The notes under the pieces are model-generated. The model searched no databases, was not told the origin of the DNA, and saw only the letters and a program-made list of their open reading frames with translations. Below, in pieces: positions 20,270 to 60,889 of a stretch of 64,000 nucleotides of DNA. The DNA is from a virus, in the IMG/VR virus record IMGVR_UViG_3300046512_000087, positions 29,404 through 93,403 of that record, one strand, 5' to 3'. The number at the start of each line of letters is the position of its first letter. Within the stretch, counting starts at the first letter, position 1. A program made the translations under genes and the position numbers.

Positions 20270-20298
20270 ATCGTACTTTAGGTACTAGGTTTGTCCAA
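20270..20298 (-). promoter_or_regulatory. Sigma-70 promoter next to a 14-bp repeat
   Basis: Minus strand TTGGAC (20298-20293), 17-bp spacer, TACGAT (20275-20270). The 14-bp repeat lies 6 bp upstream of the -35 box. Drives the 52-aa gene and ligase. Confidence 0.8.
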
Positions 20299-20613
20299 TG
20301 ATTTTGCAATTGATTGCACGCGAGCATCCCGCAGGCGTACACGGCGCTTCAGGGTCTGAAGGCTGTAATACACCATCTTCTCTGCGTCGTATACGCCGTC
20401 CTTGTCCATGCCCGGCTTGAACAAGTCCTGCTCCCTGGCAGCGCAAGAACGCCAGATAGCCTTGAACTGGTTGCCCTCGGCAAACGTCATGTTCAAAGCG
20501 TTGATGATGTCCTCACACTCACAGGTGTAGGGCTCTGGCAAGTTGGCAGGCTCGGGCACAAACAGCTTGTAGTACCCAACTGACCCACCAGTAGCCTTCT
20601 GTTCTTCACTCAC
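20278..20613 (-). CDS. Hypothetical protein, 111 aa
   Basis: A 111-residue protein with CECEDIINALNMTFAEGNQFKAIWRSCAARE in the middle, of a type seen in phages without known function. Its end (VQSIAKSLDKPST) is encoded by the 14-bp repeat followed by the -35 box of the next promoter, so regulatory DNA doubles as coding sequence. Confidence 0.75.
   Translation of the reverse strand: MSEEQKATGGSVGYYKLFVPEPANLPEPYTCECEDIINALNMTFAEGNQFKAIWRSCAAREQDLFKPGMDKDGVYDAEKMVYYSLQTLKRRVRLRDARVQSIAKSLDKPST
20305..20318 (+). repeat. 14-bp dyad repeat at promoter and gene end
   Basis: Exact copy, 6 bp upstream of a -35 box and read as VQSIA at the end of the 111-aa gene. Confidence 0.95.
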
Positions 20614-20797
20614 GTTTCATACCCTCCAGGATCTTCTGGGCTTTCGGACCCGGGAATCGGCGCCATTTGATGTGTGGGTAGTCAGCTGCCACTTGCCTGA
20701 ACGTGTGCCAGCTGCACCCAAACTCTTTGAAGGCTGAGGTCCTACTATGCCCCTTTGCGGCCAGGGCCATCAGAACAGCCTCCACTGACTCAGACAT
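20606..20797 (-). CDS. Small protein with possible helix-turn-helix, 63 aa
   Basis: A 63-residue protein. SRTSAFKEFGCSWHTFRQVAADYP looks like a helix-turn-helix. It overlaps the HNH gene start region on one side and the 111-aa gene on the other. Possible DNA binding; unproven. Confidence 0.65.
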   Translation of the reverse strand: MSESVEAVLMALAAKGHSRTSAFKEFGCSWHTFRQVAADYPHIKWRRFPGPKAQKILEGMKRE

Positions 20798-21731
20798 TCT
20801 CTCGGGCCATCCGGCGTTTATGCTCTGTCATCAGAGCCCGGTAAGTATCAGGTGGCAACATGTCCTTGGCTACAGTTTTGAGCAACGTGCCGTAGGCGAA
20901 GTCTTCTTCCTTGTGTATAGCAATGTTCACCAGTTTCAAATACACCCGGACTTTCGCCAGCTCCTTGCGGGCCTTCGACTTGGCCGACAGCCAGTAATTC
21001 TTCCGGGACTTTTCCAGCATCATCCGGGCTTCAGCATCCATGTACCGGCCAGCAGCGTCAGCCTCCCGCAACTGGAGGATCACCTTCTGCTCAATCAATG
21101 GCAGGCGGGACACCGCCGCGTAGTCGATGATTGGCGGGTCCTCGGCAAACACCATCGGAGTGAAAGGGATCTCTTCACGCGGTATCAACACGGCTGGTTT
21201 CTCCACCACCGGCAACTCCACTGGAGCCTCCAGAAACTTAGGCGGTGATTGCACTACCGTAAGCTCTGGCATGTCATGGGAGCGGGAGACATTGCAGGGC
21301 TGGCAGGCCAGGGTCATGTTGTTCCTACCATCCAGTCCTCCCCTGGCAAGGGGGATGATGTGCTCCAGTGTCGAGGTGTTGATAGTCACCTCACAGTTGC
21401 ACCACCGACAGGTATTTACACCCTTGTCCAACAGGGCCTGCCGGTGGCCTCTGCTCTCTTTGCTCCGGCGCCGAGCACGGTCCATCTTCGGAACAATAGC
21501 TGGAGCCCGGTTAGCCATCTCCACGGCCTCCAGGGGCGACACGTCATGCTTGCCTCTCACCGTGCCTGCAACATAGGCCGTGCGTTTGCTGCTGAACGGG
21601 TAGTAGTTGACCAGCAGCTGGCCTTTGATTTGGAAGTGGCCTGGGGCGGGTTCCGAAAAGTCCAGTTCTCTATCTTTGCACAGCTGATACAACGTAGCGT
21701 ACATCGCGTTCTGGGCCGTCCGTGTGCTCAT
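20790..21731 (-). CDS. HNH endonuclease, 313 aa
   Basis: An HNH nuclease with CRWC about residues 108-111, LEHIIPLARGGLDGRNNMTLACQPCNVSR (H, N and zinc-binding C pairs). A long helical C-terminal part (about residues 190-313) has no known domain. The start overlaps the DUF262 gene end (ATGA). The pair DUF262 plus HNH recalls GmrSD-type restriction, though those HNH parts usually belong to DUF1524. Confidence 0.85.
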   Translation of the reverse strand: MSTRTAQNAMYATLYQLCKDRELDFSEPAPGHFQIKGQLLVNYYPFSSKRTAYVAGTVRGKHDVSPLEAVEMANRAPAIVPKMDRARRRSKESRGHRQALLDKGVNTCRWCNCEVTINTSTLEHIIPLARGGLDGRNNMTLACQPCNVSRSHDMPELTVVQSPPKFLEAPVELPVVEKPAVLIPREEIPFTPMVFAEDPPIIDYAAVSRLPLIEQKVILQLREADAAGRYMDAEARMMLEKSRKNYWLSAKSKARKELAKVRVYLKLVNIAIHKEEDFAYGTLLKTVAKDMLPPDTYRALMTEHKRRMARENV

Positions 21732-22540
21732 GCCTGCTTCTCCAGCTCAGCCTTGTACAGGGCTTCTACGTGGGCGATGTGTTCCTGGGTCTGAGCCACA
21801 CCGGCAGCGTTACAGGCCAGGAACATCTTCAGGCAATCAGCCCGGCTGGCATTCTCCGGCAGAGTGCAAACGGCTACAGCCCTGTCCTCGAAGTTGTGGC
21901 GGTCCATATAGGACAGCTGATACCAGAACTTGCCGCGCCAGGACCAACGCCCCTCCATGAAGTCCAGGATGGCGTTGATGCGCTGCTTACCGTCGATGAT
22001 TTCAGTACGGTTTTCAGGCCACTTGTGGTGTTTGAAGATGAAACTGCCAATCGGGTAACCAGCAGCGATGTTATCCATCAAGGCCACCCGGTCTTCTTCA
22101 GTCCAGACATAGCCACGCTGGTAGTCGGGATTGTCGATGTAGCCCCAGCGCTGGATGCTGCTCAAGGCGCTACCAACGTGCTGGTTGGAGAACGGCCACA
22201 TCCAGCTACGGCCAATCATGGTGGTGTCTTCCCTGGTATCCAGCGGGATCACATCAGTCCAAGGCCACGCCCCGTACTTGATTCCGTCGTCAAATGGTCT
22301 CCCGTACTTCTCACCTTTGTCCAAGCACTTGATCACAATCACCTTGCCATCGTGGGCAGTGGCCACTACTTCAGGCTCCACCAGATTACCAACTTCCACT
22401 TTCATGCCCGGCCACAGAGTCCAGGTGGGCTCTGATAACGATGCTGGGTCTGTAAGGCGGGTGCTTTCAAAGTTACTGAGGCAGAGCTTGATCCACTCTT
22501 CTTCAGTTTCTGGGAGTTTCACTACTGCTTTCTTCGCCAT
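21728..22540 (-). CDS. DUF262 / ParB-like fold protein
   Basis: A 270-residue protein. Residues about 137-200 show the DUF262 pattern: NPDYQRGYVWTEEDRVALMD, GYPIGSFIF, EIIDGKQRINAILDF (the DGQQR-like motif). This domain is the N-terminal half of GmrSD and related NTP-dependent restriction enzymes; alone in phages it often stands by nuclease genes. The roughly 100 N-terminal residues are unknown. Directly followed by an overlapping HNH gene. Confidence 0.8.
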   Translation of the reverse strand: MAKKAVVKLPETEEEWIKLCLSNFESTRLTDPASLSEPTWTLWPGMKVEVGNLVEPEVVATAHDGKVIVIKCLDKGEKYGRPFDDGIKYGAWPWTDVIPLDTREDTTMIGRSWMWPFSNQHVGSALSSIQRWGYIDNPDYQRGYVWTEEDRVALMDNIAAGYPIGSFIFKHHKWPENRTEIIDGKQRINAILDFMEGRWSWRGKFWYQLSYMDRHNFEDRAVAVCTLPENASRADCLKMFLACNAAGVAQTQEHIAHVEALYKAELEKQA

Positions 22541-22662
22541 TATTCTTCTTCCTGGTCAGGGTAATCGGGATCACGCGGGTCTGGGTGTTGGGCCATCTCC
22601 CGCTCTTGCCTACGTTGCCACAGTACCTGCTGGCGCAACTCATCTTCGTCTTCAGAGTACAT
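22540..22662 (-). CDS. Small acidic protein, 40 aa
   Basis: Begins MYSEDEDELRQQVLWQRRQE and ends in acidic DPDYPDQEEE. The ATG follows the previous stop as TGAGATG with GGGGGC upstream. The gene ends in GAA repeats that also form the ribosome site for the DUF262 gene. Confidence 0.6.
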   Translation of the reverse strand: MYSEDEDELRQQVLWQRRQEREMAQHPDPRDPDYPDQEEE

Positions 22663-22663
22663 C

Positions 22664-59986: not shown

Positions 59987-60002
59987 TGATTACCGCTGGT
60001 GC

Positions 60003-60788
60003 TTAGACCTTCACTTCCAGATCGACTTCCGGGAACAACTCGGAGAAGGCAGTCAGCGCGCCTTCCCAGCCCAGGGTGCCCATCAAAGACTTCAGGTCAG
60101 TGACGGCATCGCCGCTGGATTCGGCCTTGGCCAAAGCGCTGTTGCCACCGACGTAACCGGCACAGATCATTTCCAGGGCCACGTTGTCGTACTCGGTGCT
60201 GCATTCGGCCTTGGCCTTGTTCAGCGCGGTAGTAACGATTTCCGACTGGTCGTTGTGCAGCTTGAAGGTGATCTTGGTGATGTCGTCTTTGGTGCTGGCT
60301 TCACCGCCTTCACCCTTGTCCAGGGTTGCCTTCAACATCGCTTGCAGCTCGACCACAGTGCAGTTGCTGGCCTTCTCGACCCAGCTGTCAACGTTGTCAA
60401 CGGTCAGGTGGCGGGCCAGCTCTTTCAGCTTGGTCCAGCCCAGGCCCTGCACTTTTTCCCAGGGAATCTGCTTACCGACCAGCTCGGTGTAGATTTCCAT
60501 CAGGTAGCGAGCTTTGCGGCCTTGGAAGCCATAGCGCTCGTACACGAAGAGGTCGAACGACTCGTAGCCTTCGAACCACGCATTGTCGAAGATCACCTTC
60601 AACACTCCGCCCAGCTTGAAGTAGTCGGACTCGATGCTGTCGGCCAGCTTCTCGGCCATGTTCAAAGCCTTGGTTTTGGTCAGCTGCTCGACTTCCAGGG
60701 CGGTGTTCTGCAACCAGTCAGCACTGGTGGCCGCTTCTTTCTTGGCCTTGGTTTCAGTTGCTGGCTTGACTTCTTGCTCTTGACTCAT
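60003..60788 (-). CDS. Hypothetical protein, 261 aa
   Basis: Starts MSQEQEVKPATETKAKKEAA. A helical core follows with the FFxLGGxL-type text YFKLGGVLKVI...FEGYESFDLFVYERYGFQGRKARYLMEIYTELV (residues 52-100), of a kind seen in phage proteins with DNA-related roles. First gene of an operon after promoter 60841-60869. Not recognised further. Confidence 0.7.
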   Translation of the reverse strand: MSQEQEVKPATETKAKKEAATSADWLQNTALEVEQLTKTKALNMAEKLADSIESDYFKLGGVLKVIFDNAWFEGYESFDLFVYERYGFQGRKARYLMEIYTELVGKQIPWEKVQGLGWTKLKELARHLTVDNVDSWVEKASNCTVVELQAMLKATLDKGEGGEASTKDDITKITFKLHNDQSEIVTTALNKAKAECSTEYDNVALEMICAGYVGGNSALAKAESSGDAVTDLKSLMGTLGWEGALTAFSELFPEVDLEVKV

Positions 60789-60809
60789 TTCATGCACTCC
60801 TAGCGGTAT

Positions 60810-60840
60810 AAGGGGAGGGAGTTATTTGCCCTGTCCCCTT
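60810..60840 (-). promoter_or_regulatory. Inverted repeat at the transcription start
   Basis: Minus strand AAGGGGACAGGG, seven-base loop, CTCCCTCCCCTT. Begins just past the -10 box, so it could be an operator or a 5' mRNA hairpin. Confidence 0.6.
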
Positions 60841-60869
60841 ATTCTACCTATTACGTGGGGTTTGTCCAA
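60841..60869 (-). promoter_or_regulatory. Sigma-70 promoter next to a 14-bp repeat
   Basis: Minus strand TTGGAC (60869-60864), 17-bp spacer, TAGAAT (60846-60841). The repeat lies 6 bp upstream. Confidence 0.85.
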
Positions 60870-60875
60870 TTGTTT

Positions 60876-60889
60876 TGCAATTGATTGCA
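60876..60889 (+). repeat. 14-bp dyad repeat at promoter, intergenic
   Basis: Exact copy after the stop of the 206-aa gene (TAATTCC-repeat) and before a -35 box. Confidence 0.95.

Follow-up and report, generated by a model that had tools for sequence, protein, structure and literature searches.

The 14-mer repeat and its promoters

The window, by which we mean the whole 64-kb stretch of phage DNA analysed here, is part of a 93.4-kb record, and a 14-letter near-palindrome, TGCAATCAATTGCA, is dispersed over this genome. The record contains 50 copies, 47 of them exact, when the number of exact copies expected by chance is 0.001. Within the window there are 37 copies (34 exact and three with one mismatch; Table 1), and allowing up to two mismatches yields 41 matches against 2.9 expected. 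Across the record, 32 of the 50 copies lie within genes, the gaps between copies are more regular than chance, and the two orientations occur in a 33:17 ratio, or about 2:1. All of the called genes (133/133) are on the minus strand. A literature text search for the 14-mer sequence matched no phage paper, and megablast against phage genomes gave no match.

We scanned for promoters using a PWM derived from the elements listed in a sequence-only reading of this DNA. The scan returned exactly the 16 promoters named there, all on the minus strand, and recovered the same division into 10 with the repeat just upstream of the −35 box and six without it. They share a sigma-70-type consensus, TTKGACAAACC, a gap of 16 or 17 bp, and TAAGATA. 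In 10 of the 16, the 14-mer is located 4–14 bp upstream of the −35 hexamer, compared to an expectation of 0.13 (Poisson P ~3e-16). Counted up to the TTGACA-type hexamer, the gaps are 4, 4, 6, 6, 7, 7, 7, 7, 8 and 14 bp, so that the farthest copy, earlier placed at 13 bp, is 1 bp further away. The element at 42.3 kb does have a 14-mer near a −35-like box, but it is not a well-formed promoter, its spacer being only ~6 bp. Promoters without the 14-mer are found at 13.6, 15.4, 18.9, 26.3, 56.1 and 58.8 kb, and two strong promoters of the same type outside the window (at 11.8 and 10.2 kb of the record) also lack it. The −35 hexamer is TGGACA in 6/10 site-bearing versus 0/6 site-free promoters (Fisher P 0.03).

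Two broader claims of that reading need revision. It spoke of ten repeat copies, which is correct for promoters but not for the family as a whole, and a regulator acting only at promoters, whether activator or repressor, leaves unexplained the other 40 of the 50 copies, which are evenly spaced and mostly intragenic. It also suggested that promoters with and without the repeat could be two regulatory classes. Membership is not fixed: the conserved gene 128 promoter has the site in 7/12 genomes and lacks it in 5/12, and class membership consequently shifts between lineages.

Table 1. Positions of 14-mer copies, promoters and two genes in the window
Feature	Position	Strand	Remark
14-mer within gene 31	868..881	+	codon position same as a DLP5 site
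14-mer, intergenic, just before capsid gene 35 end side	2476..2489	+	
14-mer, end of gene 38	5328..5341	+	
14-mer within gene 39	6736..6749	-	DLP5 ortholog position <=6 nt off, opposite orientation
14-mer, intergenic	8968..8981	+	
14-mer within gene 46	13125..13138	+	
Promoter without site	13531..13559	-	PWM scan
14-mer within gene 48	15215..15228	+	
Promoter without site	15353..15380	-	PWM scan
14-mer within kinase gene 53	17402..17415	+	
14-mer within kinase gene 53	17708..17721	+	DLP5 site: same position, opposite orientation
Promoter without site, precedes PPDK-like kinase gene	18900..18927	-	PWM scan
14-mer, 1 mismatch, intergenic	20060..20073	-	
Promoter with site, −35 to −10	20270..20297	-	PWM score 24.3
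14-mer	20305..20318	+	7 bp upstream of −35
Promoter with site	23509..23536	-	PWM score 25.7
14-mer, 1 mismatch	23543..23556	+	6 bp upstream of −35
14-mer within gene 64	24027..24040	+	
Promoter with site	24410..24437	-	PWM score 15.4
14-mer	24446..24459	+	8 bp upstream of −35
Promoter with site	25735..25762	-	PWM score 26.7
14-mer	25767..25780	+	4 bp upstream of −35
Promoter without site	26272..26299	-	PWM scan
14-mer, intergenic	29358..29371	+	
14-mer, intergenic	32848..32861	+	
14-mer, 1 mismatch, within gene 80	34201..34214	-	
Promoter with site	34892..34919	-	PWM score 25.2
14-mer, opposite orientation	34924..34937	-	4 bp upstream of −35
14-mer overlapping gene 83 end	35662..35675	-	
14-mer, end of gene 84	36040..36053	+	
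Promoter with site	38362..38389	-	PWM score 25.7
14-mer	38397..38410	+	7 bp upstream of −35
14-mer within gene 91	39089..39102	-	
Promoter with site	40325..40352	-	PWM score 25.7
14-mer	40367..40380	+	14 bp upstream of −35
Malformed promoter	42268..42286	-	~6 bp from −35-like box to TAAGAT; score 10.1
14-mer	42293..42306	+	6 bp upstream of −35-like box
Promoter with site	43758..43785	-	PWM score 25.0
14-mer	43793..43806	+	7 bp upstream of −35
14-mer within gene 108	45424..45437	+	
14-mer within terminase gene 109	47305..47318	-	
Gene 111, ParB_N-domain protein	48057..48854	-	disfavoured as binder
14-mer within ParB-like gene 111	48126..48139	+	codon position same as a DLP5 site
14-mer within gene 112	49262..49275	+	
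14-mer within gene 114	51682..51695	+	
14-mer within gene 118	54378..54391	-	
Promoter without site	56111..56139	-	PWM scan
14-mer, intergenic	56431..56444	+	
14-mer, intergenic by present gene call	57093..57106	-	
14-mer, intergenic	58348..58361	+	
Promoter without site, precedes Arc-like gene	58774..58802	-	PWM scan
Gene 128, conserved protein	60003..60788	-	promoter bears 14-mer
Promoter with site, precedes gene 128	60841..60868	-	
14-mer	60876..60889	+	7 bp upstream of −35
14-mer within RuvC-like gene 130	61861..61874	-	DLP5 ortholog position 4 nt off, same orientation

Site conservation and geometry in related phages

Three phages carry exact copies of the identical 14-mer (DLP5, 26 of its ~35 sites; DLP3, 24; Summit, 26), yet their DNA polymerases are only 54–56% identical to the one encoded here. 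DLP5 is a Stenotrophomonas phage that replicates as a plasmid when lysogenic, and its genome announcement does not mention the repeat (PMC5834331); nor is it mentioned in the passages retrieved from the DLP3 paper (PMC7326821). Eight of 15 comparable in-gene sites are within 30 nt of the orthologous DLP5 site, with 0.28 expected, and it is the site's position that is conserved between the two phages, not always its orientation. DLP3 preserves 13 of 16 DLP5 in-gene sites unchanged, although identity in the flanks is 84% and just 14% of the coding 14-mers nearby have stayed intact. On this sequence evidence, the in-gene sites are conserved as DNA. DLP5 also has a 14-mer site directly downstream of its capsid gene.

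More distant relatives, whose hosts are very different bacteria, comprise metagenomic phages, a Vibrio phage and a Rhizobium phage-plasmid. Each has 30–67 evenly spaced sites, with a consensus of its own in each lineage; at promoters they precede the −35 box by ~8 bp, or by a further helical turn, and on the sense strand only. In 12 of the 13 genomes the sites are over-dispersed, and they lie an even 1.5–3.1 kb apart in every lineage with TGCA-type sites, regardless of sequence. Pooling the 13 genomes, 69 sites lie 0–30 bp upstream of a sense-strand −35 box and three on the antisense side, with a main mode at 8 bp and a second group at 16–20 bp, one helical turn further; the spacing is meaningful, as the sequence-only reading had supposed. 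The 8-bp mode and its helical-turn companion suggest contact with RNA polymerase. Only seven sites overlap the core promoter versus the 69 upstream, and such upstream-only placement with avoidance of the core promoter speaks against a simple steric repressor. The site-bearing promoters of most relatives, the Vibrio phage among them, have a perfect TTGACA. Site orientation is ~1:1 in G022, VH2 and Rhp7, and the motif of another compared genome, G018 (TGAwCTTAAGwTCA), is unrelated to the TGCA-type sites.

VHS1 and R21Y, two of the Vibrio relatives, yield lysogens that are unstable; those of VHS1 show superinfection immunity (PMC10671443). The descriptions of several Vibrio relatives are of lytic phages. 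In scans of bacterial genomes, an MCP alignment gave matches and a single MCP protein none. A viral-contig search with ParB as the query found no match.

A candidate binding protein

The 14-mer network points to a previously undescribed phage regulator, probably a small MerR-like protein, and we infer that the product of gene 2 is the likeliest candidate to bind the 14-mer. Gene 2 (141 aa; record 972–1397, minus strand, outside the window) sits between a superfamily II helicase gene and a recA-like gene. Of the compared genomes, 11/11 that combine TGCA-type sites with an intact module encode it, the Vibrio and Rhizobium elements among them. In G018, with its unrelated motif, gene 2 is missing, and the helicase gene and gene 1 are adjacent. 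G016 has sites, but neither gene 2 nor any part of the replication module was detected in that possibly incomplete genome, and there was no gene 2 match in G012, which may also be incomplete. The DLP5 homologue matches the MerR_1 domain at 27.7 bits, above the cut-off, as does the G021 homologue; the phage's own product scores 20.0 bits, just below the 21.6 cut-off. Its AlphaFold model (pLDDT 91) has MerR-family DNA-binding domains as its nearest folds. It resembles classical MerR regulators (CueR, CadR and BmrR; VIA Z up to 9.2) and also the DNA-binding domain of RacA (VIA Z 8.2) and that of pSK1 Par, a protein of plasmid partition (Z 6.0). The syntenic DLP5 counterpart, gp059, is annotated as a transcriptional regulator. 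In Vibrio phage VH2_2019 the corresponding protein is gp003. Protein distance correlates with motif distance equally for all core genes, so gene 2 is not distinguished by covariation. Against the model favoured below, gene 2 is located in the replication/recombination operon and not in an immunity locus of its own.

Other candidates were rejected. Gene 52 (a zinc ribbon with a weak wHTH) is missing from motif-bearing G008, G015, G007 and G021 and present in motif-less G014. Gene 50, orthologous to a DLP5 'transcriptional repressor', has no detectable HTH. Gene 125 encodes an Arc-like protein with a real DNA-binding domain, and is confined to this genome among those compared. Gene 128, considered as an autoregulated binder, has no Pfam match, a low-confidence model and a 14-mer at its promoter in only seven of 12 genomes. 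No CI-type HTH_3 was found in the phage's own record.

A model for the site network

We favour, with a probability of about 0.5, a mechanism where a phage-encoded dimer, likeliest the gene 2 product, acts on ~50 dispersed operators through both promoter contact and stoperator-like silencing. A sequence-specific dimer would occupy the evenly spaced 14-mers on the phage's own genome. The ~10 promoter copies, mostly 4–8 bp upstream of the −35 box and centred near −50, would place it within reach of the polymerase, and the non-promoter copies would most likely serve as stoperator-like roadblocks or silencers. The one-directional genome would then be held down during its persistence as a plasmid prophage. 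Repression with stoperator-like blocking is the most likely action; we infer protein binding at the sites, the repression itself, the block to elongation and the tie to lysogeny.

Tentatively, the same MerR-like protein may instead coat its own genome in a dual role, as an organiser or self-marker and as a promoter regulator that contacts polymerase, with a coevolving site code. Such dual use of a nucleoid protein would then possibly characterize a clade of ~80–120 kb siphophages and phage-plasmids from several proteobacterial groups. Organisation or partition by itself is more doubtful: the sites would be evenly spread points for anchoring or compacting a plasmid-like prophage, in the manner of RacA, and the promoter copies would be placed where transcription is unobstructed. 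The even spacing in every TGCA-type lineage whatever the sequence, the retention of site position over orientation, the resemblance of gene 2 to RacA and pSK1 Par besides transcription regulators, and the plasmid prophages among the relatives are all consistent with an organiser, but it does not predict that promoters of several lineages should show a tight 7–9 bp gap together with helical phasing.

That same phasing, together with the sense-strand-only sites, is typical of polymerase contact, and could indicate an activator that recruits RNA polymerase from near −50 to early or middle promoters, the other copies being a reservoir or having lesser roles. The weaker TGGACA hexamer at site-bearing promoters agrees with this proposal; however, the perfect TTGACA of the Vibrio phage and most relatives should need no activator, and the 32 in-gene sites, their DNA conservation and their even spacing are left unexplained. 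We consider activation unlikely.

It is very improbable that the 14-mers are parS sites for the gene 111 protein. The sites are 14-bp near-palindromes and a ParB_N domain is present in both this phage and DLP5, but a gene 111 homologue (45% identity) occurs in G018, whose motif is wholly different, and none was found in motif-bearing G022, G015, G007 and G008; its distribution thus departs from that of the motif.

Least credible is that the phage captured sites of a host transcription factor. Phages are able to carry host regulator sites, but here the consensus tracks phage lineage. A Hyphomicrobium genome of 4.5 Mb has 26 exact copies of its variant, every one on the single prophage-carrying contig and 21 of them within 55 kb, and this confinement to a phage element, clear in that one host genome, argues against a host factor. 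In Roseococcus, 8/10 copies surround the prophage. One Reyranella genome has its TGCAATCGATTGCA scattered, so the argument may not extend to every host.

Comparison with known systems

Cluster A mycobacteriophages and SPbeta provide well-described precedents for dispersed networks of repressor sites. The cluster A stoperators (L5, Bxb1, TipsytheTRex) are 20–30 dispersed repressor sites, most of them off promoters, with a lineage-specific consensus that tracks the repressor and genome distance (PMC6550527, PMC9283540). The present sites are similar in having at least 20 dispersed copies (50 here, 30–67 in relatives), some at promoters (10) and most elsewhere (40), and a consensus that varies by lineage with genome distance. 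L5 stoperators, however, are 13-bp asymmetric sites to which a monomer binds and whose orientation follows transcription, whereas those described here are 14-bp near-palindromes, more numerous, often intragenic and weakly oriented or not at all, and the candidate binder is MerR-like.

In SPbeta, the 15-bp SPBRE is repeated at several promoters and bound by the master repressor MrpR (PMC10516654). Both are elements repeated at the promoters of a single phage, but the SPBRE copies described are those at promoters between genes, whereas most 14-mers are off promoters. MrpR also has a tyrosine-recombinase fold, and the record examined here has no Phage_integrase-family match.

RacA has dispersed binding sites in Bacillus subtilis, as would the putative regulator here, and gene 2 has the RacA domain as one of its closest fold matches. 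RacA is not a transcription regulator; the sites here have a fixed promoter geometry. CueR, CadR and BmrR share the winged-helix fold predicted for gene 2. Classical MerR proteins bind between the −35 and −10 boxes of promoters with a long spacer; in contrast, the present site is upstream of the −35 box and the spacer is 16–17 bp. The closest counterparts are the Delepquintavirus phages DLP5, DLP3 and Summit, with the identical 14-mer and a syntenic gene 2.

If the proposed mechanism is true, the consensus of each genome should predict superinfection immunity among phages considered for therapy (DLP3, DLP5 and the Vibrio phages). The motif variants across lineages provide a natural series for studying protein–site coevolution. 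Beside those of cluster A and SPbeta, this would be a third network, found in Stenotrophomonas, Vibrio, Rhizobium and other phages, larger, more evenly spaced and with a candidate binder of another class, and the use of a phage protein to silence or organise the whole genome would have evolved repeatedly.

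Conservation of the dispersed 14-mer

The record is 93,403 bp long, with the window spanning its positions 29,404–93,403. The opening bases of the record recur near its end as a 126-bp direct repeat, so it probably represents a complete genome assembled as a circle. A simple gene caller placed 133 of 133 genes on the minus strand. The record holds 47 exact copies of the near-palindromic 14-mer TGCAATCAATTGCA and three more with one identical single change, compared with 0.001 exact copies expected from dinucleotide composition; the central CA/TG is invariant in this phage, and the flanks contribute a weak YYY/RRR symmetry. 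The copies are spaced more evenly than random (coefficient of variation 0.54, P ~0.0002), and the largest gap is 4.3 kb versus 8.4 kb under random placement. Thirty-two lie entirely within genes, while the other 18 represent a roughly six-fold enrichment over the non-coding fraction and are frequently found a few bases past a stop codon.

The closest named phages, the Stenotrophomonas Delepquintavirus members DLP5, DLP3 and Summit, carry 26, 24 and 26 exact copies of the identical 14-mer, or ~34 sites each when one mismatch is allowed. By protein-alignment mapping, 8 of 15 mappable sites fall within 30 nt of a DLP5 site (0.28 expected), and some matched sites have kept their position with a flipped orientation. 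DLP5 and DLP3 share 13 of 16 in-gene sites without any change, whereas their flanks are 84% identical and neighbouring coding 14-mers are intact in only 14%; inside genes, selection thus acts on the DNA sequence itself.

Capsid-gene searches gathered some 30 relatives from metagenomes as well as several bacterial contigs, and the exact 14-mer is present in most of them. Several lineages have their own site versions: G022 (tGGCAATCAATTGCCa, 67 sites), G015 (cTGCAATCAGTTGCa, 58), G007 (TGCAATCAgTTGCa, 38), G021 (gTGCAATTAAcTGCAa, 32), Vibrio phage VH2_2019 (TTGCAATTAAcTGCAA, 36) and the Rhizobium phage-plasmid p7 (TGCAACssGTTGCA, 55). Another relative, G018, carries an unrelated dispersed palindrome, TGAwCTTAAGwTCA (44 sites). 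Reversed genomes, the control for these motifs, yielded 0 to 4 sites. Sites were over-dispersed in 12 of 13 genomes, G018 being the non-significant exception. The relative G014 has a 68% identical capsid protein, and the 51 kb examined contained no dispersed sites of this kind; it may represent a lineage from which the system has been lost. In G016, the 14-mers nearly all share one orientation (21:1) and stand beside a second frequent palindrome, AAAATATATTTT, with ~33 copies of its 10-mer.

Among bacterial genomes, Hyphomicrobium (4.5 Mb) has 26 exact copies, every one on the contig that bears the prophage and 21 within a stretch of 55 kb, and 8 of 10 copies in Roseococcus surround the prophage. 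In one Reyranella genome, TGCAATCGATTGCA is spread across many contigs, beyond the prophage surroundings.

Promoter geometry

A promoter scan found 16 minus-strand elements with the common consensus TTKGACAAACC, 16 or 17 bp, TAAGATA. The 14-mer lies 4–14 bp upstream of the -35 hexamer in 10 of them, in either orientation (0.13 expected, P ~3e-16), exactly reproducing the list of promoters with and without the repeat in the sequence-only reading. In the element at 42.3 kb the spacer is just ~6 bp, and this element probably does not function as a sigma-70 promoter.

We applied one generic promoter definition to thirteen genomes and pooled the site-to-minus-35 gaps; within 0–30 bp there were 69 sites on the sense strand and 3 on the antisense side. 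Since these genomes share ancestry, the gaps are not fully independent, but site and promoter sequences both vary from lineage to lineage. Seven sites overlapped the core promoter. The most frequent gap is 8 bp, placing the site centre near -50, and a second group at 16–20 bp is one helical turn away. This geometry supports the earlier suggestion of a polymerase-contact position, and fits a protein that would contact polymerase from upstream, activating or holding it, rather than simply covering the promoter. The proposed division into two promoter classes does not hold as a fixed one, because the gene-128 promoter has the site in 7 of 12 genomes and lacks it in 5.

Features in the window and the record
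Feature	Coordinates	Observations
Gene 2 (MerR-like)	record 972-1397, outside window	between superfamily II helicase and recA-like gene
NUMOD4/HNH homing-endonuclease-like gene	window 8987-9463	between DNA polymerase and portal genes; family repeated in relatives
Small CsrA-like protein	window 16169-16441	Pfam CsrA 28.5 bits; kept in most relatives; VH2_2019 homologue likewise annotated CsrA
Gene 73 region	window 27264-29336	several diverged ~120-nt repeats (repeat families D2, D5, D17); gene 73 probably a repeat-built protein
Gene 125 (Arc-like DNA-binding)	window 58366-58719	its promoter lacks the 14-mer
Gene 128	window 60003-60788	conservation spans Stenotrophomonas, Vibrio and Rhizobium elements; assigned to no known family except an uncharacterised PHROG

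Candidate binding protein

Pfam scans of ~90 small phage proteins that had no other assignment, together with targeted scans, returned four candidate nucleic-acid-binding regulators: gene 2 (MerR-like), gene 111 (ParB_N), gene 125 (Arc-like) and gene 51 (CsrA-like, RNA-binding). As binders, gene 125 was rejected for its presence only here among 18 genomes, and gene 111 for a distribution that does not track the motif.

Gene 2 is present in 11 of 11 compared genomes that combine TGCA-type sites with an intact replication module; the Vibrio phage and the Rhizobium plasmid are among them. It is absent from G018, where the helicase gene lies directly beside gene 1, and this absence coincides with the unrelated motif. 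Among seven genomes tested, only G018 encodes a Phage_integrase-family (tyrosine-recombinase-family) protein; it may use an MrpR-like binder or integrate. Gene 2 was not found in G016 and G012, which are motif-bearing, possibly partial records. Covariation fails to distinguish gene 2 from the other core proteins, all of which correlate with motif distance. In the AlphaFold model of gene 2 (pLDDT 91), a MerR winged helix follows two N-terminal helices and precedes the C-terminal helices. Among solved structures, the folds closest to it are CueR, CadR, HiNmlR, CarH, GlnR and RacA; the pSK1 Par centromere-binding domain ranks lower among the matches.

Proposed mechanism and comparison with known systems

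By sequence comparison, the sites are conserved, evenly spaced, phage-specific and fixed in their promoter geometry. A putative phage-encoded dimer, most likely the gene 2 product, would occupy them, contacting polymerase from upstream with repression at promoters and blocking in the manner of stoperators, which are dispersed repressor sites, elsewhere. We favour repression with such blocking because the site-bearing promoters are near consensus (those of VH2_2019 have a perfect TTGACA), because of the plasmid-prophage lifestyle, DLP5 replicating as a plasmid prophage (PMC5834331), and because the Vibrio relatives show unstable lysogeny, and superinfection immunity has been reported in VHS1 (PMC10671443). 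DLP3 is described as forming stable lysogens (PMC7326821). The site-bound protein may instead activate, as the upstream contact would also allow, against which stand the near-consensus promoters; or the dispersed sites may serve a RacA-like organisation of the genome. A simple steric repressor is disfavoured by sites that avoid the core promoter.

A text search for the sequence found no phage paper on the motif. A literal copy of the mycobacteriophage L5 system is disfavoured, the sites here being near-palindromic and hardly oriented. Repression through the 14-mer network would resemble in its mode of working both the cluster A stoperators (PMC6550527, PMC9283540) and SPBRE/MrpR (PMC10516654), and we place it in neither because its site orientation and the class of its candidate binder differ from theirs.
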